From: Roseivirga misakiensis
GTDB taxonomy: Bacteria > Bacteroidota > Bacteroidia > Cytophagales > Cyclobacteriaceae
Length of the DNA: 64,000 nt
Direction: 5' to 3'
Assembly (NCBI RefSeq): GCF_001747105.1
Contig: NZ_MDGQ01000005.1
Span: 930,001 to 994,000 of the forward strand
Position 1 is the stretch's first letter. The number at the start of each line of letters is the position of its first letter. Position numbers and translations under genes: made by a program. The notes beneath the pieces are model-generated. The model was given only the letters and a program-made list of their open reading frames with translations. It did not search any database and was not told the origin of the DNA. This document shows, one piece after another, positions 20,301-38,419 of the stretch.

Positions 20301-21271
20301 GAGAGGTTAGCCTGACCGTGAGTGACAATGGAATTGGAATTGACGAAAACGATCTTCCGTATATTTTTGATCGCTATTATCAATCAGAGTCGCCAGAAAA
20401 GAAAGCAGAGGGTGGAACTGGAATTGGTCTTGCCTTAGCAAAGGAATTAGCCGAATTGCAGCAAGGGCAACTTAATGTGATCAAGAATGTAGCTCCAGGT
20501 GCCAAATTCGAATATAAGTTTCCAAGAAAAGAGGCGAAAAGTGAGCTAATATTACCGCTAATCAATACTGATAATCAAGTGCTAGATATTGCGCTGAAGG
20601 AGGTCTTGACGAATTATGCTGAAACGTTTTCTGTAGAAAAGCCAGTGCTGCTTATTACAGAGGATCACCCAGATATGCGGAATTTTATAGCCAAAACGCT
20701 AGAGCCATATTTTAAAGTACTGACTGCCGAAAACGGAAGAATAGCCCTTAATGTACTCGAATCACAGGATGTGGATATTGTAATATCTGACGTGATGATG
20801 CCAGAAATGGATGGGTTTGAGTTGCTGGCGTCAATTAAACAGAATTCTAATTTGCATCAAGTCTCTGTTGTTATGCTTACCGCCAGAACTGAGACTGAAG
20901 ATAGGCTACATGCCCTGACCATGGGTATCGATGATTATTTGACCAAACCATTCAGTGCAGCAGTATTTCTTGCTCGAATTAAGAATATTCTAGAGAACAG
21001 GATCAAAGTAATCAAAGCAGTCAAAGAACTGAATAAAGTTAATGCCAATGGAGTCGAGGATAATACGAGTGTATTAGCAAGCGAATACAATCTTTCGGCG
21101 CGTGAAATCGAAGTTCTAAAACTGATCTCCAAAAGGTATTCAAATGCCGAAATGGCGGAAGAGATGTATGTCTCTACCAATACTATAAAGTTTCACATCA
21201 AGAATCTATACACTAAAATAGGGGTTAAGAATAGAGCGCAAGCTTTAGAACTTCTGGAATTAGAACAGTAA
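17339..21271 (+). CDS. Hybrid two-component sensor-regulator: Reg_prop/Y_Y_Y, kinase, receiver, LuxR-type HTH
   Basis: The 1310-residue protein joins a whole signalling chain. After an N-terminal hydrophobic segment come a periplasmic Reg_prop beta-propeller (about residues 50-680), a Y_Y_Y domain (about 700-765), a membrane helix (about 772-793), a coiled coil, HisKA with HELRTPLT near 849, HATPase with GIGIDENDL and GGTGIGLAL, a receiver with DVMMPEMDG near 1150 and KPF near 1200, and a C-terminal LuxR-type HTH (LSAREIEVLKLISK...). Bacteroidota one-protein systems of this type usually end in AraC; a LuxR output is less common. They typically sense glycans, though no polysaccharide genes are adjacent. 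No in-frame ATG or GTG precedes the hydrophobic segment; the TTG at 17339 is the best start, and a stop lies in frame at 17306. Confidence 0.92.
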   Translation: MNSPLFTSKPYLNYLAKSVTCLLLILFVGNTSYPFQEERSVEIKQIGSPFIKNYLHTDYGAHEQSYRIAQSESGLLYFTNVSGVVEFDGIRWGVDGSISDDAFRGISISEDGRIYTASKSLLGYFEPDTVGQLKFQSLNHLLPANKERSTDIWDVQKVGEKVIYRNSAELLIYDIVKEVFQSVTSEKRFGQSDLIDGKYYVQGSESGILVFDGNSFQVLPNSSELKGFTFRKILKFSDNELLFVSQHNGLLRYDFEKVTPWQTEVSDFLKEQKAFSGECIGKDYFAFGTITGGVVIINRSGELVQKFDKSTGLPSNGLVQDIFHDKDGNLWIAQHGSISHVVINTPFTIIDDRHGVEGYVLYAQKWKNKTYVSTATGLVAKDDNSPWQSLNSDYKPFTPVWNSNERVWMTVKHGDDFFSAGNAGFVQILNNGVKTLYRGERLWAAVALKNSDFIIMGSIAGNLFTFQKKNGRWQYNGKIKGFNKQMDFLEQTEDGDLWMTDSGTGVFKIHLNSEKDSVLSIKTYGVEDGLPLQERNRVFRHSDGLYFATAKGVFTYNAEHDKFEPASQFKDLLKDKYVFRFIEMENGNIFASLSPGGKSVLKKANDQYTIQYSPFERISGHNSEYVTGLGGNNIWIAGTGLRHYDWDFNQAPPSGFKALIRSVRVSNKGDSLIYAGLAQQPAMNLASKENALHFEFTSNYYDQLERVSFESYLEGTEKTWTPWTDKADRNYTNLPSGTYTFKVRAKNLYGEVSEEAQFTFTIATPWYFTYWAYGVYLILLVLIVWLIVRLNVQRLENEKIRLEEIISERTVEIREQKDQAERDKELIQKQADRLKALDKVKSRFFANISHELRTPLTLINAPLESLVDSGKIKDEEVRETLRVAKRNGINLLSLVEEILDLAKLDAGKLSLVENPVLLHEFIKDILNEYGAASKTRNIDFEFVFGLPKDLTLLMDEKKAGKIIRNLLSNALKFTESKIKIEVLETTAGEVSLTVSDNGIGIDENDLPYIFDRYYQSESPEKKAEGGTGIGLALAKELAELQQGQLNVIKNVAPGAKFEYKFPRKEAKSELILPLINTDNQVLDIALKEVLTNYAETFSVEKPVLLITEDHPDMRNFIAKTLEPYFKVLTAENGRIALNVLESQDVDIVISDVMMPEMDGFELLASIKQNSNLHQVSVVMLTARTETEDRLHALTMGIDDYLTKPFSAAVFLARIKNILENRIKVIKAVKELNKVNANGVEDNTSVLASEYNLSAREIEVLKLISKRYSNAEMAEEMYVSTNTIKFHIKNLYTKIGVKNRAQALELLELEQ

Positions 21272-23357: not shown

Positions 23358-24704
23358 TTAGAAATGTAATCTAAACCGAGAGCCAACGCCTATTTCCGAT
23401 TTCACTGTTAAGTCACCCTTATGTTTTTTCATGATCTGCTTGGATAGGCTCAGTCCAATTCCAGAGCCTTCGGTTTTTGTGGAGTAAAACGGTACAAAGA
23501 TTTCTTCTTGTTTATCTATCTCTATACCTGTACCATTATCTTTCACTTCGATGATCTGGCCAGCGCCGTCTTCATAGGCAGTTAACGTGATAGTACCGTT
23601 TTCCGAACCTTCAAGCGCATGTCGGGCATTGGTAATCAAGTTAATCAAGACTTGCTCGATTAGCTTTCTATCCATTTTAATACGCAAATAGTGAGGGGCA
23701 GAAATGCGAATTTCTACATTAGACTTTTCGGCTTCGCTGCTTAGTAAAACGGCCATTTCTTCTAACAACTCGCTCACTTGGATTTCTTCAAGCTCCAAGG
23801 CTTTTATCTTAGTCAATCTGCGGTAGTCATCTACGAAGTGTAATAGACCTTCGCTTCTTTTTTGAATCGTTTTCATTGAAAAGCGGAGGTCCTCCAAAGT
23901 TTCTTCAGTCAACTCGTTGAGCGGTAACGGCACACCATCCTTCTCGGTAAGCATAAGCATGGTTTCTGTAAGCGAGGTGACCGGCGTCACAGAATTCATG
24001 ATTTCATGCGTCAGCACACGAATCAACTTATGCCAAGCTTCAATTTCTTTCTGTTCAATTTCACTCTTGATATCTTGAAAAGTAACGATCGTATATCTAT
24101 AGCCCAGAATTTTTAATCGATTTACTTGAGCCGATATTTGTAGTCTCTCCTCTTTGATATTCAATTCAATTAACCGCTTCTCATTATCTTCCATGTCTTC
24201 AATTTCTTGAGCCAAATGGGGGAGAAGCTGATGAAACTGCTTCCAGTAATTGGGGGTAGAAATCTTGAGCATTTCCTGCGCTCCTTCATTCATTAACTCA
24301 ATGGAGTACTCTTCTTTGATGGCAACTACTCCGACTTTAATATTGTCTATAATGACCTTTAAAAATCGAAATTGGGCCTCTTTTTCAACACTGACTTTTT
24401 TAAAGGCCTCAATAATTTCCACGAAAGCTTCCTGTAATTCTCTGAACGATTTGCCTCTTTTTCCACCTTTAAAAGAGATTGAAAAATCAGAATAACGAAT
24501 CGCTAAAAGCAGTTTAGCCAATTCCCTGTTCGTATAGGTGACAAAACGAATGAGTTCCGATACTTGTAGGATGATAACACCAAGCAGGATGATCTGATTG
24601 AAGAAAAGCTCGGTTCTAGCGAAAATAAAAGCTAACGCCACCAAGGTTAGCATTAGTAAAATGATTCTAATTATGACAAGAAGTGCAAACCGTTTAGATA
24701 CCAT
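23358..24704 (-). CDS. Sensor histidine kinase with membrane hairpin (NtrY/AtoS-like), partner of the adjacent sigma-54 activator
   Basis: The 448-residue kinase starts with two membrane helices (about 7-29 and 37-57) joined by only about seven residues, so it has essentially no periplasmic sensor domain. A PAS-like domain (about 105-215) follows, then a dimerisation helix with phospho-acceptor His233 in LTHEIMNSVTP, and HATPase motifs DNGTGIEI and GSGIGLSL near the C-terminus. This layout is that of intramembrane-sensing kinases, which in Firmicutes take their signal from a partner ABC permease. It is encoded 12 bases downstream of the NtrC-type regulator gene and shares its transcript. The divergent FtsX-like permease array is the obvious candidate for sensing or output, though that is inference. 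Confidence 0.92.
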   Translation of the reverse strand: MVSKRFALLVIIRIILLMLTLVALAFIFARTELFFNQIILLGVIILQVSELIRFVTYTNRELAKLLLAIRYSDFSISFKGGKRGKSFRELQEAFVEIIEAFKKVSVEKEAQFRFLKVIIDNIKVGVVAIKEEYSIELMNEGAQEMLKISTPNYWKQFHQLLPHLAQEIEDMEDNEKRLIELNIKEERLQISAQVNRLKILGYRYTIVTFQDIKSEIEQKEIEAWHKLIRVLTHEIMNSVTPVTSLTETMLMLTEKDGVPLPLNELTEETLEDLRFSMKTIQKRSEGLLHFVDDYRRLTKIKALELEEIQVSELLEEMAVLLSSEAEKSNVEIRISAPHYLRIKMDRKLIEQVLINLITNARHALEGSENGTITLTAYEDGAGQIIEVKDNGTGIEIDKQEEIFVPFYSTKTEGSGIGLSLSKQIMKKHKGDLTVKSEIGVGSRFRLHF

Positions 24705-24716
24705 AATTCTAATTCC

Positions 24717-26090
24717 TTACAGTCCGTATTTTTGAAGTCTTCTATATAGGGCAAGTCTATCGAGCCCTAGCTCTTTAGCGGCCCTAGTGACATTACCATT
24801 GTTTTTGTCCAATGCTTTCAGAATTAACCTTTTCTCCATTTCTGTTAAGTTCAGCGTCTCATCCGCACTACTTTCTGATTGACTAGAGGTCTGTAATAAG
24901 AAGTCATTGGTTGTCAATTTATTCTCTTCAGATAAGATGATCGCACGCTCAATAGCATGTTGTAATTCTCGGATATTACCAGGCCAATTGTAGCGTTTGA
25001 GTTTGTTTAGGGTAGCAGCATCTATGCGCATGTTAGGCTTTTTGTATTTTTTGCCATACATATTCATGAAGTGCTTCACCAATAGCTCCATGTCGTCTTT
25101 ACGCTCTGCTAATGATGGCACTCTCAATTCTACGGTGTTAATTCTATAAAGTAAATCCTGACGGAAAGTGCCTTCTTTCACCATATCGTATAAAGGCATA
25201 TTCGTAGCACATACAAGTCGAATATCAATTGATACCTCTTTATTTGAACCCACCCGACTTACTTTCCGCTTTTGCAAAACAGATAGAAGTTTTGCCTGTA
25301 GGGGCATAGAAAGATTACCGATTTCGTCTAGGAAAAGTGTACCGCCTGATGCTACTTCAAAACGTCCCGGTTTGTCTTCTTTGGCATCTGTAAAGGCTCC
25401 TTTTGCATGTCCGAAGAGTTCGCTTTCGAATAGGGTTTCACTGATGGCGCCCAAATCTACGCTGATAAAAACTTCATTGGATCTAGAGGACTGACGATGC
25501 AGCGCTCTAGCCGCCAATTCTTTTCCTGTTCCGTTTTCTCCAAGAATAAGCACATTGGCGTCTGTTGGGCCAACTTTCTTTAACAGAGAGAAAACCCTGA
25601 GCATAGGCTCCGATTCTCCCAAAAAGTTTTCGAATTTCTGGTCGATATCATCCGAAATAGTCTTTTGAGTAGTTTTGAGTTTATCGACCTCTAATTTGCT
25701 CTGTCTTAGTTTGAGCGCAGATGTTATAGTGCCAAATAGCTTTTCATTCTTCCATGGCTTAGTGATGAAATCAGTCGCCCCGGCTTTAATGGCTTTTACG
25801 GCTAAGTCAAACTCACCATAAGCCGTAATTAAAATGACTATTGCGTTGGGGTCAAGATTGAGAATCACATTGAGCCATTTAAGGCCATCAGATCCATCAT
25901 TTTCACCTTTTCTGAAATTCATATCGAGCAAGACGATATCGAATGATTCTCTGTCGAAATGAAGTGGGATGTTTTCAGGGGTATTTTCAATTTGTACTAG
26001 CGTGAACTGTTGTTTTAAATACATTCGGGCTGTATTTAAAATATCAACATCATCATCTACTACGAGTATTTTAGCTTCCGTTTTAGCCAT
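24717..26090 (-). CDS. NtrC-family sigma-54-dependent response regulator
   Basis: The 457-residue protein has a receiver (1-125) with phospho-acceptor Asp56 and the KPW lysine near 111, an AAA+ domain (about 155-390) with Walker A GENGTGKE at 184-191 and the sigma-54-contacting loop GAFTDA at 231-236, and a C-terminal Fis-type HTH (NVTRAAKELGLDRLALYRR). It should open promoters held by RNA polymerase with sigma-54 when phosphorylated by the kinase encoded next to it. Just eight bases upstream of its ATG begins a pair of dyad-like units that recurs upstream of the second permease operon. That points to these operons as its targets and to possible autorepression. Confidence 0.95.
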   Translation of the reverse strand: MAKTEAKILVVDDDVDILNTARMYLKQQFTLVQIENTPENIPLHFDRESFDIVLLDMNFRKGENDGSDGLKWLNVILNLDPNAIVILITAYGEFDLAVKAIKAGATDFITKPWKNEKLFGTITSALKLRQSKLEVDKLKTTQKTISDDIDQKFENFLGESEPMLRVFSLLKKVGPTDANVLILGENGTGKELAARALHRQSSRSNEVFISVDLGAISETLFESELFGHAKGAFTDAKEDKPGRFEVASGGTLFLDEIGNLSMPLQAKLLSVLQKRKVSRVGSNKEVSIDIRLVCATNMPLYDMVKEGTFRQDLLYRINTVELRVPSLAERKDDMELLVKHFMNMYGKKYKKPNMRIDAATLNKLKRYNWPGNIRELQHAIERAIILSEENKLTTNDFLLQTSSQSESSADETLNLTEMEKRLILKALDKNNGNVTRAAKELGLDRLALYRRLQKYGL

Positions 26091-26097
26091 ATTTGAA

Positions 26098-26138
26098 CTG
26101 TATCAAAAACAAACACTTAAATGTATTGAAAACAAACG
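26098..26138. promoter_or_regulatory. Enhancer-like paired repeat (UAS 1) between regulator and permease operon A
   Basis: Two near-identical 16-base units, TGTATCAAAAACAAAC at 26099-26114 and TGTATTGAAAACAAAC at 26122-26137, lie 23 bp apart start to start. The 41-base block matches the block at 33463-33503 at 38 positions. Each unit contains an imperfect TGTxT...AAAACA dyad. It starts exactly 104 bases before the -24 element TGGCA of operon A, the usual place for an NtrC-type activator, and only eight bases before the regulator's own ATG on the other strand. Confidence 0.8.
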
Positions 26139-26200
26139 AATTATTTTATATCTAGTCGATTATTGGATTGTATATATCTGATATTCAGTGCTTTAAATTT

Positions 26201-26217
26201 TTGGCATCAGATTGGTT
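26201..26217 (+). promoter_or_regulatory. Sigma-54-type promoter of permease operon A
   Basis: TTGGCATCAGATTGGTT resembles the -24/-12 consensus TGGCAC-N5-TTGC. The -24 part is good. The -12 part is weak: TTGG is one base closer than canonical, or TGGT at canonical spacing. Its distance of 104 bases from the start of the enhancer-like block equals that at operon B, which supports the call. The ATG follows 24 bases later. Confidence 0.6.
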
Positions 26218-26240
26218 AAGGTGTTTTCAAATAATAGGAT

Positions 26241-28667
26241 ATGCTTAAGAACTATTTTATCACAGCGATTAGAAACTTACTACGAAACAGAAGTTTCACC
26301 ATCATCAATATTTTTGGTCTTGCACTTGGGATAAGTGCGGCTTTAGTATTGTTTAAAATTGTACTGTTTGAAAAGAGCTTTGATTCGTTTTTCATAAAGT
26401 CTGACAGAATTTATCGTTTTGTTAAACGTGTCGAAAACCCAAATTTGGTCGAGTTAGAAGCTGGAATTCCTAACCCTTTTGCTAAGGCATTCAAAACAGA
26501 CTATCCCGATTTAGGCATACCAGTAAGAACTTTCTACATCGGTGAGAATCAAATCAGTGTAAAGAAAAGAAACGGTGATTGGACTCATTTTGAGCAGAGT
26601 GAGGGAATTAGTTTTACTGATCCAGATTATTTCAAAGTCTTCGATTACGAATGGATCATTGGTGATCCTAATACTGCGTTAGACAAGCCAAAGTCTATTG
26701 TCATTACGGCTTCCATCGCTAAAAAATATTTTGGTCTAGCAGATGAAAAAAGCTTTGACCTGATCTTAGGTGAGGAGATTAAACTCAACAACGAGCTTAC
26801 CACTTTTGTGACTGGTGTAATCGCAGACCCTCCAAAGAATTTATCACTTCCATTTGAGTTATTCATAGAATATGAAGCCATAGAAACCATTTTTGATTTC
26901 TATCAACCAGATTCATGGACATCTACCTCTTCAAATGCCAATGTTTACTTTTTGGCGAACGAAAACGTATCGAGTAAAGAGATAGAGACGGTTTTACCAG
27001 CTATGTCAGAGAAGTATATTCCAGCTACTGAAAATAGCACCGCTTTCAACATTCAAGCTTTAAAGGATATTCACTTCCAGCCAGAATATAATACTTATGG
27101 TAGTTCTGCTGAGTCACCCCAAACCAACATTTTTAGAGTAGCAATAGCACTCTTTTTGGTGCTCACGGCTTGTATCAACTTTGTGAATCTTTCAACTGCA
27201 TTGGCGATCAAAAGATCAAAAGAGGTAGGTATTAGAAAAGTCCTAGGTGGATACAAAGGACAATTGATCCTTCAGTTTTTGGGAGAAACCTTTATCATCA
27301 CAGTAGTGGCAGTCACACTTTCCATGGGAATCGCAGAGTTAGTGATGACGAACTTTGAATCCGTTATCGGTAATCGTCTCTCATTAAACTTATTTGGTGA
27401 CCCACAACTGCTATTATTGACTTGTTTGATCATAGTAGGTGTGACCTTATTCGCGGGTTTATATCCATCGCTAGTCTTGTCACGACTCAAGCCTGTAGCA
27501 GTATTAAGAAGTAAGGGGCAATCATCTCTATCTGGAAATATTAATACAAGAAGAGGACTCGTTGTTTTCCAATTCTTTATTTCTCAAGTTTTGGTGATTT
27601 GCACCTTAGTTGTAATCGCCCAAATGAGATATTTCTCTCAACAAGATTTGGGTTTTCGACAATCTTCCATCATGACATTCCAATTGCCATCGAATGAAGA
27701 ATCTAAGTTGAATCCATTAAGAGATGAATTGCTACGCTTTCCAGGAGTAGAAATGGTCAGTTACAATTATGCTAGCCCTTTAAGTGAATCCAACATTGGA
27801 TCGACCTTTAACTATGCTCCATTAGGTTTGAGCGAGAATTTCGATGTAGCCTTTAAAGTCATAGATGACAACTATTTAGACTTATTTGAAATAGAGCTTT
27901 TGGCCGGAAGAGACATCAAAAAGAACGATACGCTTACAGAAGCATTGGTTTCAACGGACATCTTGAAATTGATGGAGATTGATGATCCTCAGGACGCAAT
28001 CGGCTTGGATATAGAAACTGGATTTGCGAATGATAAAAAGATAGTCGGTGTATTCAAGGCATTTCATAATAAAGACTTAAGAGAGAAAATCGACCCAATG
28101 ATTATGGTGAGGTTTCCAGGCTACTTTTACGAAGGAGCTGTAAAATATGAAGTATCTGATGCACAGTTCACTAACCTTATGAAAACTGTGGAAAATGCTT
28201 GGAGCGCTCAGTATCCAGAAATTCTATTCGATTACAATTTAGTGACGGAAGACATCATGACAAACTATGAAGAAGAGGCCGATACTATGGTGATTTTCCA
28301 AGTCTTCTCAGGTATTGCTATCATGATCGGCTGTTTAGGGCTTTATGGTTTGGTTTCTTTTATGGCTAGCCAGAAGAAAAAAGAGATTGGAATCAGAAAA
28401 GTTCTTGGTGCATCTGTTCAACAGATACTAGGAATCTTCTCTAAAGAGCTAATTGTTCTAATACTCATTGCATTTGCCATTGCCGCTCCAGTTGGCTACT
28501 ACTTTATGAACGATTGGTTGACGGGTTTTGAGTACAGAATTGAAATGAATATCGGCGTGTTTGCTCTAGCCATCGGTTTTACCTTAATAATAGGAATTGT
28601 GACCACAGGTATTAGGTCTATCCAAGCTGCTCAGTCCAACCCAGTAGACTCACTTAGAAGCGAATAA
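26241..28667 (+). CDS. FtsX/MacB-like ABC permease, first gene of operon A
   Basis: The 808-residue protein is a double-length FtsX-type permease: a helix near 20-42, a large extracytoplasmic MacB_PCD-like domain (about 43-290), three helices (about 296-318, 346-368, 388-412), a helix at 440-462, a second extracytoplasmic domain, and three C-terminal helices (about 681-710, 735-757, 773-797). Each half carries the FtsX motif after a helix: KEVGIRKVLGG near 325 and KEIGIRKVLGA near 715. It ends NPVDSLRSE, the C-terminal signature of this family. Such permeases need a separate ATPase and transduce ATP hydrolysis into periplasmic movement rather than classical transport. It is most like the first gene of operon B. 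Substrate unknown. Confidence 0.92.
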   Translation: MLKNYFITAIRNLLRNRSFTIINIFGLALGISAALVLFKIVLFEKSFDSFFIKSDRIYRFVKRVENPNLVELEAGIPNPFAKAFKTDYPDLGIPVRTFYIGENQISVKKRNGDWTHFEQSEGISFTDPDYFKVFDYEWIIGDPNTALDKPKSIVITASIAKKYFGLADEKSFDLILGEEIKLNNELTTFVTGVIADPPKNLSLPFELFIEYEAIETIFDFYQPDSWTSTSSNANVYFLANENVSSKEIETVLPAMSEKYIPATENSTAFNIQALKDIHFQPEYNTYGSSAESPQTNIFRVAIALFLVLTACINFVNLSTALAIKRSKEVGIRKVLGGYKGQLILQFLGETFIITVVAVTLSMGIAELVMTNFESVIGNRLSLNLFGDPQLLLLTCLIIVGVTLFAGLYPSLVLSRLKPVAVLRSKGQSSLSGNINTRRGLVVFQFFISQVLVICTLVVIAQMRYFSQQDLGFRQSSIMTFQLPSNEESKLNPLRDELLRFPGVEMVSYNYASPLSESNIGSTFNYAPLGLSENFDVAFKVIDDNYLDLFEIELLAGRDIKKNDTLTEALVSTDILKLMEIDDPQDAIGLDIETGFANDKKIVGVFKAFHNKDLREKIDPMIMVRFPGYFYEGAVKYEVSDAQFTNLMKTVENAWSAQYPEILFDYNLVTEDIMTNYEEEADTMVIFQVFSGIAIMIGCLGLYGLVSFMASQKKKEIGIRKVLGASVQQILGIFSKELIVLILIAFAIAAPVGYYFMNDWLTGFEYRIEMNIGVFALAIGFTLIIGIVTTGIRSIQAAQSNPVDSLRSE

Positions 28668-28668
28668 T

Positions 28669-31044
28669 ATGTTCAAGAACCATTTGATATCAATTTTAAG
28701 GAATCTTAAGAGGAGTAAGGGGTATACCGTCATTAATATTAGTGGTTTAGCTATTGGCTTCGCGACAGCAATTCTGATCGGTATTTACGTAAGCCAAGAA
28801 TTTTCATATGATAAACATATCAAAGATTATGAGCGCGTTTACCGTTTGAGCAATAGGAATTTTGCCTTTGCTTCCATCACTCACATGAATATGTTGCAAG
28901 AAAATGTGGCTGGAGTAGAAGCAACGGTGAATATTATGCCGCATACCAGCGGCACTATTAAGTATGGACAGTCTGGGAGTATAATCGAACCTTCGGTTTT
29001 CTACAGTACACAAGAGTATTTAAAGGTTTTTGATATTCCTTTTGTCTACGGTAACCCTGAAACTGCGTTTGACAAACCTAGCTCAATCTTGATTACAAAG
29101 TCGATGTCTAAGAAGATGTTTGGCGATAAAAACCCATTAGGAGAAAGCGTTTCTTTATCCACCTTAGTATCAAATGATGTTTATGAAGTTTCAGGTGTAG
29201 TTCAAGATTTGCCCTCAAATACACATTTAAGGTTTGAGGTGCTTGCCCGATATCCTGTTTCTTATGAAAAGATGTTGAAAGAACAAGGCTTCAATAGTAC
29301 AGTAGGTTATACCTATTTCAAACTTGAGAAGCCAATGGACAATATTCAAAATCTGTCTGATCGAGTATTTGCAAAACCGCAATATGATATGACAGATAAA
29401 TCTCAAGATTTCGAGACTTATTTGGCCTCTTATAAGCTTCGATTACCGATGATTATGAATATTGCAGACGTTCATTTAAAGTCTAATATTCAATTTGAAG
29501 CCTCTCCGCCAGGTAATAGACAATATCTAATTGTATTTATTGGGATAGCAGTTTTTATCATTATTCTAGCCGGAATCAACTATGTAAACCTGTCTACAGC
29601 TCAAGCATCAAAAAGGGCTAAAGAAGTAGGAGTTCGGAAAGTTCTGGGCTCTCAGAAAAAAGACTTGATTACACGATTTATTTTAGAATCATTTTTACTC
29701 ACATTTGGTGCTGCACTTTTAGCAATGGGTCTTGCCGAAGTAGCATTGAAAGTCATGGGTGGTTTTGGTTTTGAAAACTTCAATGTTAATGTTTTGGACT
29801 ACCCATTTCTCTTGTCCTTAGTAATGCTAACCGCTATAATGACAGGGGTTTTGTCCGGGGTATACCCAGCATTTATTCTTACTTCCTTCAAGGCATCAGT
29901 TGTTTTAAAAGGCAATCATAAAGTGGGAAGTAGCAGTAAAACTTTCAGAAACGGTTTGGTGGTTTTTCAGTTTGTCGTTTCGTTGTCGTTAGCAACGTTT
30001 TCGATTTTTGTTTATCAACAATTGAATTATGGTTTGACCAAAGACTTGGGTTTCGACAAGGAGGGAGTAATTGTGCTCGACAACAGTAAAGGCCAGTTAG
30101 GTGAAAATGTAGACCCTTTCAAAAACGAACTTTTACAACTGCCTGAAATCACCAATGTTTCCTCCAGTGCTTTTAGCATGATAGGTAATTTAGTGCTTAC
30201 CGGTTTGACTGAGGTAGGTGGAAATGGCGACTATCACCGGGCGCAATACAAGTACGCAGATTCGGATTTTGTGCCAACCATGGGGTTAAATGTTATCGAT
30301 GGTAGAAATTTCAACGATGCTATTGACGGATATGAAGCCATTCTGATCAATGAGTCTTTTGCTGAAGTACTTGGTGATGGCTTCTATGAAAAACGATTTA
30401 CCACTGGCAATGGCGACGAGAAATACAAAATAGTAGGTGTTGTTGAAGACTTTCATTATGCAGATTTTAGTGTTCCAATTGCGCCAACGTTGTTCTTTAA
30501 AGGAGATGAGCATAGACAGTTTAATATTAAGATTCGCCTTGATGAGATTGATGAAACCATCTCTAAAATCGATGCGCTCTACGCAGGTTTCTCAGATGAG
30601 CCATTAGACTATTACTTTTTTGATCAAAAGTTTCATCAGCTCTTTCAAGCTGAAAAGCGTATGAGCAGAATCATATCGATTTTCACAGGTTTAAGTCTTT
30701 TCGTTGCCTTTTTAGGTTTGATTGGACTTATAAGTTATAAGCTCGATCAGCGTACTAAAGAAATTGGGATTAGAAAAGTGCTCGGCGCATCAATTGGTCA
30801 AATCCTATCGATGCTGAGCAAAGAAATGGTCTGGTTGATTGGACTGTCTTTCCTTATATCAATACCATTAGCCTATTATGGAGTTCAAACTTGGATGAAC
30901 GATTTTGCTTACCATGTTTCCCTTTCTGCAAAGCCATTCATTACGATCGGTTTGCTTACCATACTGCTTGTAATTCTAGTGGTCTTCGCCAGATCAATGA
31001 AAACAGCAACGTCAAATCCAACTCAAGTACTCAGAAACGAATAA
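28669..31044 (+). CDS. FtsX/MacB-like ABC permease, second gene of operon A
   Basis: The ATG follows the previous stop after one base, which implies coupled translation. The 791-residue protein has the same eight-helix, two-ectodomain plan; the repeated FtsX motif reads KEVGVRKVLGS near 318 and KEIGIRKVLGA near 697, and the end is NPTQVLRNE. The N-terminus (SKGYTVINISGLAIGF) and the helix before the second motif (GLISYKLDQRTKE) differ from the other seven, making it a subtype of its own in this array. No ATP-binding domain is present. It presumably forms part of an envelope complex, perhaps as hetero-dimer with a neighbour, which the sequence cannot decide. Confidence 0.92.
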   Translation: MFKNHLISILRNLKRSKGYTVINISGLAIGFATAILIGIYVSQEFSYDKHIKDYERVYRLSNRNFAFASITHMNMLQENVAGVEATVNIMPHTSGTIKYGQSGSIIEPSVFYSTQEYLKVFDIPFVYGNPETAFDKPSSILITKSMSKKMFGDKNPLGESVSLSTLVSNDVYEVSGVVQDLPSNTHLRFEVLARYPVSYEKMLKEQGFNSTVGYTYFKLEKPMDNIQNLSDRVFAKPQYDMTDKSQDFETYLASYKLRLPMIMNIADVHLKSNIQFEASPPGNRQYLIVFIGIAVFIIILAGINYVNLSTAQASKRAKEVGVRKVLGSQKKDLITRFILESFLLTFGAALLAMGLAEVALKVMGGFGFENFNVNVLDYPFLLSLVMLTAIMTGVLSGVYPAFILTSFKASVVLKGNHKVGSSSKTFRNGLVVFQFVVSLSLATFSIFVYQQLNYGLTKDLGFDKEGVIVLDNSKGQLGENVDPFKNELLQLPEITNVSSSAFSMIGNLVLTGLTEVGGNGDYHRAQYKYADSDFVPTMGLNVIDGRNFNDAIDGYEAILINESFAEVLGDGFYEKRFTTGNGDEKYKIVGVVEDFHYADFSVPIAPTLFFKGDEHRQFNIKIRLDEIDETISKIDALYAGFSDEPLDYYFFDQKFHQLFQAEKRMSRIISIFTGLSLFVAFLGLIGLISYKLDQRTKEIGIRKVLGASIGQILSMLSKEMVWLIGLSFLISIPLAYYGVQTWMNDFAYHVSLSAKPFITIGLLTILLVILVVFARSMKTATSNPTQVLRNE

Positions 31045-31054
31045 ATTCAAAGCC

Positions 31055-33457
31055 ATGCTCAAAAATTATCTTCTAGTTGCTTATAGATCTCTAGTCAGAG
31101 ATAAGTTTTTCACGATACTAAACCTATTTGGTTTAACAGTCGGAATCACAGCGTTTCTTTTGATTGGGCTCTACGTAAAGTATGAGTTGACCTTTGATAA
31201 ATTTCACTCCAAGAAGGATAGAATTTATGCCTATAAGACCCTTTATTATACACCTGAAGGTACTTCAGGCAGTGATAAGTTTTCTTTGCCAGCAGGAAGT
31301 ATTCTAAAAGAAAATGTACCCGAAATTGAAGAGTTAGTTCAATTAACAGGAGGCTATAAGGCTCTAATCAATGTGGGTGATGAGACTTTCTACGATGAGG
31401 AATGGTATTACTCTAACAACAGCCTGTTCAAAACTTTTGACTTTGAAATAATTACAGGCACGCCAAATTTAGAAGCTGCGAGTTCTGTAGTGATTACTGA
31501 AACGATTGCTGAGAAGCTCTTTGGCGATACGGATCCTATCGGTCAGTTAATTCAAATGGATAAAAAGGACCAATATTATGTAACGGCTGTGGCTGCCGAT
31601 CCACCGAAGAATTCATACATCCAGTTCTCTATGATATTCTCAAATATCAACTTGTTAAATAGTTTGAGTCAGTATGATAATGAAGATCAACGCAGATGGG
31701 GCACCTCGGCTAATACTTACTTTTTAAAGGCAGAGGGTACATCTGAAGAACAGATGTTAAATAAAATGAGATCAGTCGGTCGAGAGTTTTTTGGTAGTCG
31801 ATTTTTCAAGGATGAAGACGGGAATCCAAACTTTGAACCGAGCATAATACCTTATGAAGATATCTATCTTAAATCGAGGTTTACCAGTGGTATTAGTCCA
31901 ACAGGTGATATTCGCTATGTCTATTTATTCTCATCTATCGCTGTTTTAATCTTATTGATCGCCTGTGTGAACTATGTCAATTTAGCGACTGCCAAATCAC
32001 TCAAAAGGGCGAAAGAAACTGGGTTAAGGAAAGTGATAGGTGCTGACAAAAGTCAATTGTTGAGACTATACCTCACTGAATCTGTTTTGCTCACTACGAT
32101 CTCTGTTTTTATCGCTTTTGCCATTGCTGAGCGGATATTGCCAGCATATAATAATCTCATCGATCGCAGTTTAGAATTGAGTTATGGTAGCTTGGAATTC
32201 TTATTCACTATAGTTGTCATTAACCTATCGATTGGAATTCTTGCTGGGTTATATCCTGCTATAAAATTGAGTGGATTTAAACCAATTGATGCTATTAGAG
32301 GGTCAAAGTCAGCTGGCGGTAAAAAATCGGTAAGAAGAGGGTTGGTTTTCCTACAGTTTTTGATAGCCCAAATGCTAATTGTCGTGACTATAGTCATCCA
32401 AAGTCAATTGAGTTACCTTCAAAACAAGGACTTAGGTTATAATCGAGAACAGGCGCTTTATATCAATACCTACGAAGAGTTTGATGAAAATGGTGATGTC
32501 TTTAAGTCCGCGGTAGATAAGATACCCTCAGTAGAATTATCCTCTTATTCTAATGGTGTTTTTACTTGGGCCGCAATAACATTTTTTCAAATGCGAGAGA
32601 TTGAAGGAAATGAAGATGATAAATCAGAAGATTATGTAATCGCCGATTTATTTGAAGGAGATGCAGATTTTATCGATCTCATGCAAATCGAAATGATCTC
32701 AGGAAGAGGTTTTGATAAGAATAATACTAGCGATGAATCAGAGGCAATTATCATTAATGAGGCTGGGGTAAAAAAGTTTGGATGGGAGGAGCCATTAGGT
32801 AAGAAGCTTAAAGTCTGGGGAAGTAAGGATCGCTATGTAATTGGGGTTATGCGCGATTTCCACAATGAATCTCTGAAGGCAGAAATTACCCCAAGTTTTG
32901 TGGTGCTTGACAACAAAGCGACAGAATACTTAAACCTTAGAATAGGTGCCGAAGATATGTCAGGTACTATTGCTAAAGTTGAAAGTATCTGGAATGAACT
33001 AGTGCCAGATCGGCCATTAGAATATACATTTTATGACGATAAGTTTGATCAACATTATAAAGCAGAACAACGCTTAGGTCAAGTATTTTTCACGTTTGCC
33101 TCCTTGGCAATTGGCATTTCGCTTTTAGGTCTAATTGGCCTTACAACCTTTACAGCAGAACAACGCCTGAAGGAAATTGGCATTCGCAAGGTACTCGGTG
33201 CTTCCATTAAGCAGTTAATCCTATTGCTGTCAAAAGAATTTGTAATACTCAGTTTAATCGCTTTTCTGGTTGCCGTTCCTATTTCATACTATGTAATGGA
33301 TGATTGGTTGACTGAATTTAAATATCGAATCGATATTAATGTTGGCATCTATGCCATAGCTATTGTCGCCTCGATAGGAGTGGCGTGGTTAGTTGTTTGT
33401 TTTCAGTCAATTAAAGTGGCCAAAAGTAACCCAACCAATATCCTAAGAACAGATTAG
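31055..33457 (+). CDS. FtsX/MacB-like ABC permease, last gene of operon A
   Basis: The 800-residue permease begins ten bases after the previous gene. Its first FtsX motif is KETGLRKVIGA near 321 and its second KEIGIRKVLGA near 706; it ends NPTNILRTD. The middle membrane block (FAIAERILP, then a tyrosine/asparagine-rich loop) and the region TTFTAEQRLKEIG closely resemble the last gene of operon B (43314-45683), not its direct neighbours. After the stop, the enhancer-like block of operon B starts within six bases, and a hairpin with a T-run follows. Confidence 0.92.
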   Translation: MLKNYLLVAYRSLVRDKFFTILNLFGLTVGITAFLLIGLYVKYELTFDKFHSKKDRIYAYKTLYYTPEGTSGSDKFSLPAGSILKENVPEIEELVQLTGGYKALINVGDETFYDEEWYYSNNSLFKTFDFEIITGTPNLEAASSVVITETIAEKLFGDTDPIGQLIQMDKKDQYYVTAVAADPPKNSYIQFSMIFSNINLLNSLSQYDNEDQRRWGTSANTYFLKAEGTSEEQMLNKMRSVGREFFGSRFFKDEDGNPNFEPSIIPYEDIYLKSRFTSGISPTGDIRYVYLFSSIAVLILLIACVNYVNLATAKSLKRAKETGLRKVIGADKSQLLRLYLTESVLLTTISVFIAFAIAERILPAYNNLIDRSLELSYGSLEFLFTIVVINLSIGILAGLYPAIKLSGFKPIDAIRGSKSAGGKKSVRRGLVFLQFLIAQMLIVVTIVIQSQLSYLQNKDLGYNREQALYINTYEEFDENGDVFKSAVDKIPSVELSSYSNGVFTWAAITFFQMREIEGNEDDKSEDYVIADLFEGDADFIDLMQIEMISGRGFDKNNTSDESEAIIINEAGVKKFGWEEPLGKKLKVWGSKDRYVIGVMRDFHNESLKAEITPSFVVLDNKATEYLNLRIGAEDMSGTIAKVESIWNELVPDRPLEYTFYDDKFDQHYKAEQRLGQVFFTFASLAIGISLLGLIGLTTFTAEQRLKEIGIRKVLGASIKQLILLLSKEFVILSLIAFLVAVPISYYVMDDWLTEFKYRIDINVGIYAIAIVASIGVAWLVVCFQSIKVAKSNPTNILRTD

Positions 33458-33462
33458 AATTA

Positions 33463-33503
33463 CTGTATCAAAAACAAACACTTAGGTGTTTTGAAAACAA
33501 ACG
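33463..33503. promoter_or_regulatory. Enhancer-like paired repeat (UAS 2) upstream of permease operon B
   Basis: The units TGTATCAAAAACAAAC (33464-33479) and TGTTTTGAAAACAAAC (33487-33502) have the same 23-bp period as at 26098-26138. TGTTTTGAAAACA in the second unit is a perfect palindrome about its central G, which suggests that each unit binds a dimer. The block starts 104 bases before the -24 element of operon B. Conservation ends abruptly at both edges, as expected for a binding site rather than a chance leftover of duplication. Confidence 0.85.
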
Positions 33504-33530
33504 TTTCTTATATTGTAGGAAACGTTTTTT
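33499..33530 (+). terminator. Intrinsic terminator of operon A, overlapping UAS 2
   Basis: AAACGTTTC (33499-33507) and GAAACGTTT (33519-33527) form a 9-bp stem with an 11-base loop, followed by T residues to 33530. The left arm overlaps the last five bases of the enhancer-like block. The stem is AT-rich with three G-C pairs, so termination may be partial. Confidence 0.6.
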
Positions 33531-33565
33531 TATTGTAAGTATCTGTAATTAAGCGGGTTAAAGAG

Positions 33566-33582
33566 TTGGCACTCTAATTGGA
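33566..33582 (+). promoter_or_regulatory. Sigma-54-type promoter of permease operon B
   Basis: TTGGCAC-TCTAA-TTGGA matches TGGCAC-N5-TTGC(A/T) at canonical spacing with one change in the -12 part. Transcription would start near 33592. That places the ATG at 33582 upstream of the transcript and makes the ATG at 33615 the start of the first gene. Confidence 0.8.
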
Positions 33583-33614: not shown

Positions 33615-36008
33615 ATGTTTAAGAACTACTTCAAAATACTTTGGCGCAATTTCAGAAGAAATAGAGCCTTTACGATCATCAATATTTCTGGGCTTACACT
33701 AGGGATCACGTGTAGCTTAATTATGTTCCTAATTGTGAAAGAGGAACTGAGCTATAACCGCTACCATAAGAACATTGATTCTTTATACAGGGTAGGGCAC
33801 ATCGACTATGTAGATGGAAACGAATACCCAGGAGGAGGCTCTCCATTGCCAATGTTAGAAGCAGTAAGAGAACAGATCGTTGGTTTGGCTAATGCGACAC
33901 TGATCTCTCACGAAGGTTATGGTCTCATTTCTGTCACCGATAAAAGTGGTGAGGTAAAGTATTATGAAGAATCTCCAGATGTGGTCTATGTGGAGCCGAA
34001 CTTCTTTGAAATGTTTGATTGGGAATTGCTTGAAGGGGCAGTCGAAGAATCGTTTAAAAGCCCAAATACAGTAGCCATCAGTAAAGAGTTGGCTGATAAG
34101 TATTTCCCTGAAGAGTCTGCTGTAGGTAAAACAGTTAGGTTGAATAAGAGCAAGGATTTACTAGTTACTGCAGTTTTAGAAAATGCACGGAACAACTCCG
34201 ACTTTCCTTTCGGATTTTTCATTTCTATGGAAACCAAAAAGGCCGACGAACCATTTACAGAGTGGGGTAGCATCAGCAGTAACAATGTGATTTTCCTTCA
34301 GCTTGAGGAGGCAACCACCGCAGAAGATGTAGAAGCACAATTCCCAGACTTTGTTGAGAAAAACTGGAACAACATGACAAAGGATGAACGAAAGTTCGTC
34401 TTGTCTGATTTCAGTAACTATCACTTCGATGATCGATTCAATACCTTCGGCGGAGGCTCATCAAAGCAGTTTTTATGGACTTACTCGGCAATTGGTCTTT
34501 TCTTAATCATCACCGCATGCTTCAATTTTATAAATATGTCTACCGCCATGGCTGTCAAAAGAGCCAAAGAAGTGGGCATGCGCAAAGTGCTCGGTAGTAG
34601 CAGAAAACAACTTGTTTTAAGGTTTTTAGGGGAGACCTTTATGATCACCTTTATTTCCTTACTTTTATCCATTGGGCTAACTGAAAGGCTGTTACCACTT
34701 GTTGTAAACGACTTTTTCGAACTTGAAATAAAGCTTTCCTTGCTTACCGATGGCCTGTTGGTTGGTTATCTGCTCGGTGTATTAGTATTAGTTTCGCTTC
34801 TAGCCGGACTCTATCCTGCCTTTGTACTCTCTAGTGCCAAACCGATATCTGCCTTGAAAGGAGCGCTTGACGCTAAAGGCGGTAATATGTTCATGCGACG
34901 TTTCTTAGTCGTTTTTCAATTCTTTCTATGTCAAGTATTGATCTTCGGGACCATTGTAGCGGTTCGACAAATGAACTTCTTCACTACAGTAGATATGGGT
35001 TATGAAAAAGAGCATGTAATGTTCTTTAATATGGCCGAAAGTGAATTGGACAAGCAAAAGTTATGGAAAGCACGTGTTCAAGATATTCCTGGTGTTAAAT
35101 CAGTTTCCGTAGCGTCACACCCGCCATTTTCTGGTGCCATTATGGGTACAAATGGTTATTACTACACAAGTGATACAAGCCGTACGGAGATAAATGTGCA
35201 TTTCAAGCGTGTGGATGAGGCCTATGCTGATACTTATGGTCTAAGGTTAATTGCTGGTGATTGGGTTTCAAAGAGCGATACGATCAACCAATTCGTAGTT
35301 AATGAAACTTTCTTGGCAAAAGCAGGTGTCAAAAACCCTCAAGATGCAATTGGACAAACAGCCAATGTTTGGGGTAATAAGTATCCGATCGTTGGGGTTG
35401 TAGAAAATTTTCATTCTACTACATTATCTGAAGCTATCGAGCCGATGATGCTCTTCTCTGATGCCGTCCGTAATCAAACGATCGGTCTTAAAATAAATGG
35501 TGCCAGAACAAAGGAAATCGTATCCGAGCTAGAAGAAATCTGGTACGATATGCATGAAGAGTATGAGTTCGATTATGATTTCATAGATGCTCAAATAAAA
35601 GAGTTTTATCAGACTGAAGAGAAAATGTCTCAGTCTCTGACCGTTTTTGCGGGAATTTCCATATTTATTGGATGTCTTGGGCTTTATGGTTTGGTGGCCT
35701 TTATGGCGAATCAAAAAGCGAAAGAGATCGGTATTAGAAAAGTCTTGGGTGCGTCAGTAACAAGTTTGGTTTCGAACTTCTCTTTAGAATTTCTGAAACT
35801 CGTACTGGTCGCTTTCATCTTCGCGGCACCGCTAGCCTATTTTGGTATGAATTCTTGGCTCCAAGAGTACAAATACAGCATTAGCATTGGTCCGCTAATT
35901 TTCGTCTCCAGTATTGTGATGTCTATCATCATCGCCATTCTAACTACTGGACTTAGGTCTCTGAAAGCAGCAACGGCAAACCCTATCACCTCTCTTAGAG
36001 ACGAGTAG
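33615..36008 (+). CDS. FtsX/MacB-like ABC permease, first gene of operon B
   Basis: From the ATG at 33615 the protein has 797 residues and starts MFKNYFKILWRNFRRNRAF, in line with the N-termini of its paralogues (MLKNYFITAIRNLLRNRSF in the first gene of operon A). An in-frame ATG at 33582 lies inside the sigma-54 -12 element and cannot be on the transcript. The FtsX motifs are KEVGMRKVLGS near 318 and KEIGIRKVLGA near 704; the end is NPITSLRDE. The segment GCLGLYGLVAFMANQK near the C-terminus is nearly the same as in the first gene of operon A (GCLGLYGLVSFMASQK). The two operon leaders are therefore the same subtype. Confidence 0.92.
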   Translation: MFKNYFKILWRNFRRNRAFTIINISGLTLGITCSLIMFLIVKEELSYNRYHKNIDSLYRVGHIDYVDGNEYPGGGSPLPMLEAVREQIVGLANATLISHEGYGLISVTDKSGEVKYYEESPDVVYVEPNFFEMFDWELLEGAVEESFKSPNTVAISKELADKYFPEESAVGKTVRLNKSKDLLVTAVLENARNNSDFPFGFFISMETKKADEPFTEWGSISSNNVIFLQLEEATTAEDVEAQFPDFVEKNWNNMTKDERKFVLSDFSNYHFDDRFNTFGGGSSKQFLWTYSAIGLFLIITACFNFINMSTAMAVKRAKEVGMRKVLGSSRKQLVLRFLGETFMITFISLLLSIGLTERLLPLVVNDFFELEIKLSLLTDGLLVGYLLGVLVLVSLLAGLYPAFVLSSAKPISALKGALDAKGGNMFMRRFLVVFQFFLCQVLIFGTIVAVRQMNFFTTVDMGYEKEHVMFFNMAESELDKQKLWKARVQDIPGVKSVSVASHPPFSGAIMGTNGYYYTSDTSRTEINVHFKRVDEAYADTYGLRLIAGDWVSKSDTINQFVVNETFLAKAGVKNPQDAIGQTANVWGNKYPIVGVVENFHSTTLSEAIEPMMLFSDAVRNQTIGLKINGARTKEIVSELEEIWYDMHEEYEFDYDFIDAQIKEFYQTEEKMSQSLTVFAGISIFIGCLGLYGLVAFMANQKAKEIGIRKVLGASVTSLVSNFSLEFLKLVLVAFIFAAPLAYFGMNSWLQEYKYSISIGPLIFVSSIVMSIIIAILTTGLRSLKAATANPITSLRDE

Positions 36009-36043: not shown

Positions 36044-38419
36044 ATGAATCTAAGAATGTTAAAAGGAATATATCGGTCATTTCAGCGAAGCCCACTCTTA
36101 ACAAGCCTGAATGTTTTAGGCTTAAGTATAGGTTTAGGTAGCTTTTTAGTCATCACGCTTTTTCTCTTTCAAGAGAATAGCTATGAAAAGAATGTCCAAG
36201 ATTATGAACGAATCTATAGGGTAGAGGAGACGTTTATGAATATGGGGAGAGTTGCCTCAACATCTCCCAATTTACCACATAGTCTTGCTGACTTTGCACA
36301 AATAGAGTTGCAAACAAGGGTCGGTCGGCTGGGTGCCGAAACAAAAGTGATTATTGGAGAACAGACTTTTGCCGTCAAAAAGGCAATGCTTGCCGATAGT
36401 GCCTTTTTTAAATTATTTGGTCATCAGTTTATCGCTAAGTCGAGTGAGACTGTATTAGCGCAACCTCGAGAGATGGTGCTTTCAGAGAAGACTGCTATGA
36501 AATTCTTTGGCAGAACTGATGTTTTGGGTGAAGTCGTAAGGTTTTTAGACTTTCCGCCTCATAAGGTTGTAGGCGTAATCAAAGATGACAAACTCAAATC
36601 TCATCTTGATTTCGATCTAGTAATATCTTCTCGAAAAACTGTATATGAACCGAATAGGTGGTGGGGGCTATCGGGTTATTCTTATGTGAAACTGACCCAG
36701 GGCACTTCACCTGAAGCCCTTACGGATGAGTTGGACAGACTAGTGGAAAAAGAAGTTTTTCCTGTGTTAAATGCGGGGTATCAAATGCCTTTTGAGGAAT
36801 GGATCGAAAGTATCAATAAAATGGAGTTCCATGTTAAGCCGATACGTGATATTTACCTGAACTCTAACCTCGATTTTGAAATCAGTCAGAACGGAGATCG
36901 TCAAACTCGCATTACGCTCACTATCATTGCCGTTTTCATTCTACTAGTTGCATCTATCAATTTTATGAACCTCACCACTGCTAATTCCTCTAAGCGGACT
37001 AAAGAGATTGGGGTTCGTAAGGTATTGGGTGCTACCAAACAGGCATTGGTTAAATACTTCCTGATCGAAGCTGTGATTATCACCTTCATAGCTACTCTAC
37101 TTGGTGCTGGCATGTCAGAATTGTTTATCGGGCTAATCAACCAGTCGCTTGGAGAAGTAATCGGTGTTTCTTTGGTCAACTACCCGGTATTGTTGATCTA
37201 TCTAGCCCTGTTTGTCTTAGTCCTCGGAATTATGTCTGGTATTTATCCTGCGTTTTTCCTGGCCTCTGCTAAAATGATCCCGCTACTCAAGGGAATGAAA
37301 ATTAATCGTGTGCTTAATTTAAATGGAGCTAAGCTATTGCGAAACGGTTTGGTTGTAACGCAATTCGCCATTTCATCCACCTTGATCATTGCCAGTGTTC
37401 TGATCTATAATCAATTAAGACATCTACAAAATGTGAATCTAGGATTTGCACAAGATCAAGTAGTCATAATCAAACAGACTTACCCGTTAAAAGACGCCAA
37501 AAGTGCCTTACGAAATGAGCTATTAAGGCTACCAAGCGTTGTAGACGCGAGCTTTACCCATAAGTTACCAGGCGATGGTACTGATGCTACTACATCCGTA
37601 AATTTAGATGAAGACAGGGCGCTTACGCTGACGCATTTCTATACGGATGAATATTTAGATGACGCCCTTGGACTAAATGTAACAGATGGTACTTGGTTCG
37701 ATCCAGAGAAGAACCAATATGATTCCTTGATCGTGATCAATAACGCGGCTGCTCAGGCCTTAGGATATGAGGATCCCATTGGTCAAATATTTGGAGATTA
37801 TTGGACAATTATTGGTGTGGTCGATGACTTCTACTTTGATGGCCTCAGAGATGAAATTGGGCCAGCCATGTTTATTTATTCACAGGCAAACCAAACTAAT
37901 TTGGCGGTGAGATTTAGACCAGACGCCTTCTCAATCGGTGATGTAGAAGAAGTATGGACAGAGTTCACCAAGATTCCTTTTGAGTATTACTATTTAGATC
38001 AGAATTTTGAAAGGCAACTGGTCAAAGAGGGCCAAAATGCGAATGCAGTACTAATATTTACGGCTTTGGCAATTTTAATCTCTTGTCTTGGTTTGTTTGG
38101 CTTGGCCGCTTTTACAGCAGATCAGCGATTGCATGAGTTTGGGATTCGTAAAGTACTTGGGGCCAATGTTCAGGACATCATTAAGGTATTTAGTTTCGAT
38201 TTTGTGAAACTGATCATTCTAGCCTTTTTTATATCCATTCCGCTGGCGTTTTATGGAGTAGACCTTTGGTTAAATGGGTTTGCGAATAGAATTTCTATCA
38301 GCATCTCGCCATTTATACTTTCTGGGGTGCTTTCCATTGGCATCGCCATGATCACTATACTGTTTCAGTGTATTAAAACTGGAAGAATCAACCCTACAGA
38401 TACCCTTAGAAACGAGTAA
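36044..38419 (+). CDS. FtsX/MacB-like ABC permease, second gene of operon B
   Basis: The 791-residue permease starts 35 bases after the previous gene; the alternative ATG four codons on (36056, MLKGIYRSF) resembles the starts of the next two genes and may be the true one. The FtsX motifs read KEIGVRKVLGA near 320 and HEFGIRKVLGA near 696, and the protein ends NPTDTLRNE. With the next two genes it shares SLNVLGL in the first helix, YQEN/FQEN-SYE after it, and (H/K)EFG in the second motif, forming a subtype present only in operon B. Confidence 0.9.
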   Translation: MNLRMLKGIYRSFQRSPLLTSLNVLGLSIGLGSFLVITLFLFQENSYEKNVQDYERIYRVEETFMNMGRVASTSPNLPHSLADFAQIELQTRVGRLGAETKVIIGEQTFAVKKAMLADSAFFKLFGHQFIAKSSETVLAQPREMVLSEKTAMKFFGRTDVLGEVVRFLDFPPHKVVGVIKDDKLKSHLDFDLVISSRKTVYEPNRWWGLSGYSYVKLTQGTSPEALTDELDRLVEKEVFPVLNAGYQMPFEEWIESINKMEFHVKPIRDIYLNSNLDFEISQNGDRQTRITLTIIAVFILLVASINFMNLTTANSSKRTKEIGVRKVLGATKQALVKYFLIEAVIITFIATLLGAGMSELFIGLINQSLGEVIGVSLVNYPVLLIYLALFVLVLGIMSGIYPAFFLASAKMIPLLKGMKINRVLNLNGAKLLRNGLVVTQFAISSTLIIASVLIYNQLRHLQNVNLGFAQDQVVIIKQTYPLKDAKSALRNELLRLPSVVDASFTHKLPGDGTDATTSVNLDEDRALTLTHFYTDEYLDDALGLNVTDGTWFDPEKNQYDSLIVINNAAAQALGYEDPIGQIFGDYWTIIGVVDDFYFDGLRDEIGPAMFIYSQANQTNLAVRFRPDAFSIGDVEEVWTEFTKIPFEYYYLDQNFERQLVKEGQNANAVLIFTALAILISCLGLFGLAAFTADQRLHEFGIRKVLGANVQDIIKVFSFDFVKLIILAFFISIPLAFYGVDLWLNGFANRISISISPFILSGVLSIGIAMITILFQCIKTGRINPTDTLRNE

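Follow-up and report, generated by a model that had tools for sequence, protein, structure and literature searches.

The enhancers of NtrC-family activators (for instance, NtrC, ZraR and LuxO) are paired dyads located at sigma-54 promoters, whose consensus is TGGCAC-N5-TTGC, with the GG-N10-GC spacing, and such enhancers are usually described as tolerant of distance. The activators themselves have a loop motif of the GAFTGA type. A locus resembling these systems is present in the 4.45-Mb genome of Roseivirga misakiensis, within a stretch of 64,000 nucleotides (positions 930,001 to 994,000 of contig NZ_MDGQ01000005.1, G000:C5:930001-994000 in our numbering) that is analysed here as a whole and is referred to as the window: two nearly identical 41-bp blocks precede two operons of duplicated FtsX/MacB_PCD permeases, and the gene of an NtrC-family response regulator diverges from the first block. 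In all likelihood, to judge from the sequence, both blocks serve as enhancers in a sigma-54 circuit of the NtrC two-component type, with rigid geometry, which drives these permeases. Such a circuit had been proposed in a first-pass annotation of the window, and the proposal is supported, as far as sequence can support it, by what is directly observed: the anatomy of the locus with its parts present, the conservation of sites and promoters in the genus, their fixed spacing, the enrichment of an IHF-like box and the covariation of half-sites with recognition helices. Beyond that annotation, three observations are added: (i) relatives preserve the distance, mostly at one of two discrete values; (ii) the spacer contains an IHF-like box; and (iii) there are several paralogous modules.

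Like the NtrC, ZraR and LuxO systems, the locus has an activator composed of receiver, AAA+ and Fis-type helix-turn-helix (HTH) domains, together with paired dyads upstream of -24/-12 elements, and the solved structures matched by sequence to the activator include NtrC-family proteins, ZraR and LuxO. It departs from them in its operator sequence, in a spacing that is nearly invariant over many related activators, in kinases that have no extracytoplasmic domain and in its targets, which are arrays of FtsX/MacB-type permeases. The Vibrio qrr enhancers (LuxO) likewise combine a tandem of sites with a sigma-54 promoter, and their loop lengths are clustered around 11 bp apart, which is read there as helical tolerance; the same study describes enhancer classes both with and without IHF sites (PMC4740811). 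Those clusters span roughly 80 to 120 bp within a single genus and for one regulator, whereas here two lengths are common among many paralogues whose operators differ, and a fixed slot holds an IHF-like box. A survey of sigma-54 regulons describes, in the part considered, sigma-54 control of COG0577/FtsX-like permeases, enriched in Bacteroidia among others; enhancer spacing and an activator-specific operator were not found in that part (PMC12316311). In view of both precedents, the circuit is of a known kind. No description of this operator or geometry was recognised in the literature on sigma-54, Bacteroidota, FtsX/MacB permeases and spacing, covered mostly through abstracts and with few subscription journals, which is weak evidence of absence. 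What is apparently new, in the sense of not found in the literature searched, is (i) the strict geometry over many related activators; (ii) the correspondence between operator and recognition helix; and (iii) the layout of the kinases.

The two blocks (Table 1) are, as had been claimed, identical at 38 of 41 positions, and their units start 23 bp apart in both (TGTATCAAAAACAAAC/TGTATTGAAAACAAAC and TGTATCAAAAACAAAC/TGTTTTGAAAACAAAC, respectively). Among direct repeats with a common 12-base seed, they are the window's only pair of 41-mers with at least 35 matches; from base composition, about 1e-9 pairs with at least 38 matches are expected. The exact sequence TGTWTYRAAAACAAAC occurs in four copies genome-wide, all of them inside the two blocks. 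With up to two mismatches, the genome yields 49 matches versus 47 for the reversed control, and no further pair of units 23 bp apart was seen among those 49. In the window, the units are imperfect dyads; cleaner palindromes are found in more distant relatives (TGTATCGAAAGTGATACA in L107 and TGTATCGTAAACGATACA in L077). From the start of the block to the first T of TTGGCA there are 103 bases, and not the 104 counted by the first-pass annotation; the value of 104 holds in both operons when measured between the initial T of unit 1 and the first G of the -24 GG.

A search for the activator in 59 relatives gave a match at the cut-off in 42 of them. Within the genus, 16 of 18 relatives hold a close orthologue (79-90% identity); none was found in G008 (84% complete; no match at the cut-off) or in G017 (80% complete; one match, at 60%). 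The genus counts that follow refer to the 17 orthologue-holding genomes, the window's own included, out of 19 examined. The paired site is present in the divergent region of all 17, with at least two exact units in 13 (12 of the 16 relatives plus the window). One base of unit 1 is altered in L097, L098 and L100; L101 has the palindrome GTGTTTGTTTTCAAACAC in place of unit 1, with unit 2 and its distance to the promoter kept. The offset between units is 23 bp in 16 genomes and 22 bp in L101, and the distance from unit 2 to the GG of the -24 element is 81 bp in 17 of 17, with 63 spacer bases between them in every case. Mean pairwise identity is 94% in the block, 38% in the first 30 bases of the spacer (33% when shuffled) and 56% in the rest of it. 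Across these 17 genomes, six lengths (38-44 bp) are found between the -24 GG and the permease ATG, and three values (28, 29 and 31) for the distance to the activator ATG, which varies widely outside the genus. Since the spacer is constant in length and diverged in sequence, and its flanks vary in length, it is the length that is held and not the sequence.

A second block followed by a GG-N10-G promoter is found in seven genomes (the window, L087, L088, L089, L090, L092 and L102), behind differing numbers of permeases, and its unit 1 precedes the -24 GG by 104 bp in six of them and by 105 bp in the seventh. It was not found in L091, L093, L094, L096, L099 and L101 by a search for exact units in about 20 kb of each, which a diverged block could escape; the stretches of L095, L097, L098 and L100 were too short to judge. 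The inner 7-bp spacer of block 1 (26115-26121) carries TAAA in 17 of 17 genus genomes, versus none of the seven second blocks (33480-33486 in the window; read by eye), which is why block 1 may have an extra duty or overlap the promoter of the activator itself.

The module in the window is one of several paralogous modules. The genome encodes six full-length paralogous activators (43-61% identity), each with an adjacent kinase: L031, L032 and L033 adjoin permease arrays, L035 adjoins one permease, and in L034 another reading frame lies between activator and permease. Their upstream regions carry other dyads; the L031 module has CGTCCGCCAGCGGACG, for instance, and in the L033 module two operons are preceded by TGCCCATTTTTGGGCG. 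A scan with dyad units fixed at 17 bp, which gave a pair plus a promoter in only 4 of 111 upstream regions, was replaced by one that allowed units of 14-18 bp, with a dyad-pair score cut-off of 11 and the distance taken from the pair midpoint to the GG. In this way, 205 distinct activator upstream regions were scanned; 94 have a promoter-like site, and 73 also have a dyad pair over the cut-off. Distances cluster near 72 and 85 bp, 43 of the 73 being at 70-75 bp (17) or 82-88 bp (26), versus a mean of 4.7 and a maximum of 13 in 2000 permutations of promoters among loci; as many loci are related, such permutation figures are not strict probabilities. Among 99 distinct upstream regions fetched after the peaks were first seen, from genomes of the above search in relatives (some of which had also given earlier loci), 31 were scored and 17 of these lie within one or other of the two ranges, versus a permuted mean of 2.9 and with no permutation out of 5000 reaching that count.

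The spacer also contains an IHF-like box, YAANNNNYTGATW, which is the reversed IHF consensus. With no more than one mismatch and starting 30-35 bp before the GG, it is found in 16 of 31 long-class promoters other than operon-1 orthologues (0.6 expected from mononucleotide shuffles), in 10 of 15 operon-1 orthologues (0.3 expected; 15 of the 17 were used) and in 5 of 17 short-class promoters (0.2 expected). The box had been considered as a mark of the long class alone, an idea that was dropped because the short class is enriched too, less strongly. By analogy with IHF at other sigma-54 promoters, it may act as a bend site for IHF or HU. Considering the rigid distance, the two lengths about one helical turn apart and the fixed slot of the bend, it is probable that the dyads, the bend and the promoter are arranged in a single stereospecific loop, the geometry of which is perhaps helically phased.

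Several points weigh against a rigid enhancer circuit. At the level of the locus, (i) of the -24/-12 promoters claimed by the first-pass annotation, GG-N10-G is kept at both operons, but both -12 elements are off consensus, the C of GC being absent; (ii) the IHF-like box of operon 2 is weak in the window; (iii) the single PF00216 (HU/IHF-family) gene of the genome is not assignable to IHF or HU; and (iv) the orthologues fetched from outside the genus (L103, L104 and L105) are without an exact unit, related dyads being present in L103. Regarding the survey, (i) only 94 of the 205 upstream regions have a promoter-like site at the cut-off; (ii) the two distance windows into which 43 of 73 fall were set after the peaks had been seen; (iii) 30 of the 73 are outside both; (iv) the window's own pair, with a score of 9.5, misses the cut-off of 11 and is not counted in the 73; and (v) in this same genome, L034 scored 61 bp and operon 1 of L033 gave no promoter hit. 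In some of the 30 outliers the wrong dyad was picked (the kin of L031, at 92-93 bp; L103, at 61 bp here and at 87 bp in another scan), and others may be real exceptions.

The constant spacing could also be due to common descent together with a slow turnover of insertions and deletions, with no selection on geometry. The two length classes do cluster on the activator tree (59 rows, 55 of them labelled), requiring 4 changes versus a shuffled mean of 14.7, with 0 of 500 shuffles as low; the short and long lists for this comparison, which also served for the counts of the IHF-like box, were hand-picked (rows inside the distance windows, operon-1 orthologues, plus L118, L120, L126, L155, L152 and L035). 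Nevertheless, among the same 17 genomes there are six lengths of the leader and three on the activator side, as against a single length of the spacer, the sequence of which has largely changed. Furthermore, unlike dyads have the two lengths in common, and the distance over which the activator of the L032 module seems to work is about 82 bp at the first operon, where the promoter is weak, and about 73 bp at the second. We therefore regard descent without selection on geometry as an unlikely explanation.

The activator that would read the dyads can be approached through its recognition helix. Similarity between half-sites was compared with similarity between helices in 42 rows, namely 40 of the 43 rows inside the distance windows (L233, L084 and L101 left out), the window and L274, the latter outside the distance windows; three rows have no recognisable helix pattern and 39 were usable. 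The correlation is 0.53 (n = 39), and the partial Mantel value given the rest of the protein is 0.34, 0 of 2000 permutations being as high. RGA helices pair with TCCA or CCCA half-sites; RSS with TCCG, TTCA and TTCG; RTS with TACG and TTCG; RST with TATC or TGTC; and RAT with TTTA or TATA. As half-sites covary with helices, the dyads are tied to the neighbouring activator, and this covariation is the best evidence that it is this activator, and not another factor, that reads them. That the blocks are instead sites of a different regulator (a repressor or a global factor), with the NtrC-type gene nearby by coincidence, is very improbable: the dyads are imperfect and block 1 lies where the activator gene begins, a position expected of a repressor operator, but the covariation exceeds what overall relatedness explains, and the fixed distance is that to the -24 element, the distance to the activator ATG being variable. 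Hardly credible is the notion of block 2 as a mere recent duplicate of block 1 and its promoter, whose match would say little of function, since, despite the near identity of the blocks and spacers alike at 31 of 58 positions (above chance), the 20 bases upstream are alike at only 4 of 20, and seven genomes keep the second block with inner spacers altered and the distance kept.

In the enhancer circuit proposed here, the kinase would phosphorylate the activator encoded beside it, the dimers of which would bind both dyads of a block and nucleate an AAA+ ring. This ring would then remodel the sigma-54 RNA polymerase poised at the promoter, which lies 81 bp further downstream (from unit 2 to the -24 GG), with the help of an IHF/HU-type bend in the fixed slot just upstream of the -24 element. 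Block 1 would drive permeases 1-3 and block 2 permeases 4-8; in addition, block 1, which abuts the start of the activator, may autoregulate it. The gene rpoN, whose absence had been named beforehand as grounds for rejecting the circuit, is present in one copy (one PF04552 match, E 4.9e-55).

Table 1. Features of the permease locus, with positions counted from the first base of the window.
Feature	Position	Strand	Basis and remarks
Histidine kinase adjoining activator	23358-24704	-	Pfam HATPase_c
Activator, NtrC-family response regulator	24717-26090	-	Pfam Response_reg, Sigma54_activat, AAA_lid_14 and HTH_8, all over cut-off
Paired enhancer block 1 (putative)	26098-26138	+	Units 26099-26114 and 26122-26137; 8 bases from activator ATG
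IHF-like box YAANNNNYTGATW	26171-26183	+	Mismatch count: 1; starts 32 bp upstream of -24 GG of promoter 1
Sigma-54-type promoter, operon 1	26201-26217	+	GG-N10-G; -12 element off consensus (TGGCATCAGATTGGT)
Duplicated FtsX/MacB_PCD permease 1, operon 1	26241-28667	+	Pfam
Duplicated permease 2, operon 1	28669-31044	+	Pfam
Duplicated permease 3, operon 1	31055-33457	+	Pfam
Paired enhancer block 2 (putative)	33463-33503	+	Units 33464-33479 and 33487-33502; immediately after permease 3
Intrinsic-terminator-like hairpin with T tail	33499-33527	+	Consensus scan; between block 2 and promoter 2
Weak IHF-like box	33536-33548	+	Mismatch count: 2; matching slot before promoter 2
Sigma-54-type promoter, operon 2	33566-33582	+	TGGCACTCTAATTGG, with GG-N10-G; -12 element off consensus (TGGCACTCTAATTGGA)
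Duplicated permease 4, operon 2	33615-36008	+	Pfam; likely start 33615
Duplicated permease 5	36044-38419	+	Pfam
Duplicated permease 6	38421-40877	+	Pfam
Duplicated permease 7	40879-43302	+	Translation; among eight proteins of permease profile; no single Pfam scan
Duplicated permease 8	43314-45683	+	Translation; among eight proteins of permease profile; no single Pfam scan

Activator and kinase run leftwards, and the eight permeases run rightwards, in groups of three and then five. The parts listed by the first-pass annotation were all recovered: an NtrC-family activator beside the first block, with the predicted domains over their Pfam cut-offs and the GAFTDA variant of the loop read in its translation, a kinase (HATPase_c), two GG-N10-G promoters and eight permeases (FtsX/MacB_PCD matches; the Pfam scan covered six of the eight, and all eight entered into the permease profile). 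The activator corresponds to no named equivalog (AtoC, NtrC, ZraR or LuxO), the best 25 of 86 NCBIfam matches all being below their cut-offs. The ATG listed for permease 4, at 33582, is directly behind the -12 element, and 33615 (MFKNYF) is the likelier start. The hairpin probably ends operon 1; as it lies between block 2 and promoter 2, the second enhancer sits in the tail of operon 1. Similar hairpins were seen by eye in L087, L088 and L092. Near the module, at 17339-21271 of the window, a hybrid two-component protein of 1310 amino acids is encoded, with sensor repeats, kinase, receiver and LuxR-type HTH, as judged by eye.

An ABC ATPase was sought inside the two permease operons, with no ABC_tran match. 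In the whole genome, 150 of 187 candidate MacB_PCD matches were scored (many permeases give two) versus 45 ABC_tran matches. Permeases far outnumber ATPases in this genome, which also contains an array of 16 permeases at C5:1713407-1751647. At L030:6174-9716, an exporter operon (HlyD, ABC ATPase and OEP, without a permease) diverges from a paralogous activator; the best score of its ATPase is with DarD of the darobactin exporter, below the cut-off, and this ATPase might serve permeases encoded elsewhere, for example those in the window. Permease 1, the only one scanned against ADOP and DarB (NCBIfam), matches ADOP near its full length and DarB in part, but is far below the curated cut-offs of both (265.8 versus 622.3 and 114.8 versus 700, respectively).

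In a simple hydropathy scan of the seven kinases, hydrophobic segments are confined to approximately the first 56 residues, and the loop is short; six kinases have at least two such segments, and that of L034 has one over the threshold. Hydrophobic segments restricted to the N-terminus and so short a loop leave no space in which an extracytoplasmic sensor domain could fit. The Bce-type modules of Bacillota consist of an FtsX-type permease, an ATPase gene, an OmpR-type regulator and a kinase whose two membrane segments are separated by very little, and in these modules it is the permease that does the sensing. The present module has in common with them, from the hydropathy of the seven kinases and the gene order, FtsX-type permeases beside a kinase without an extracytoplasmic sensor domain; it differs in having a sigma-54 activator in place of the OmpR-type regulator, duplicated MacB_PCD permeases and operons without an ATPase. 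By analogy, its permeases could be sensors, which is put forward as a hypothesis only. A broader proposition, conceivable but doubtful as a whole, is that a class of sigma-54 modules occurs across Bacteroidota, each with its enhancer, IHF/HU bend and promoter prebuilt as a rigid unit for which two lengths are permitted; paralogues would be insulated by operator and helix, and the kinase would have no outer sensor domain because the sensors are the FtsX-type permeases under its control, as in Bce-like flux sensing rebuilt on sigma-54.

The significance of these modules lies in the fact that they constitute a natural family in which spacer sequence changes at fixed length, so that loop geometry becomes testable on many promoters, a test to which the two common lengths, about a helical turn apart, and the bend box in a fixed slot add. 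The correspondence between helices and half-sites is a start on predicting which activator drives which permease genes and, finally, the layout of the kinases raises the testable hypothesis that the permeases may act as sensors.

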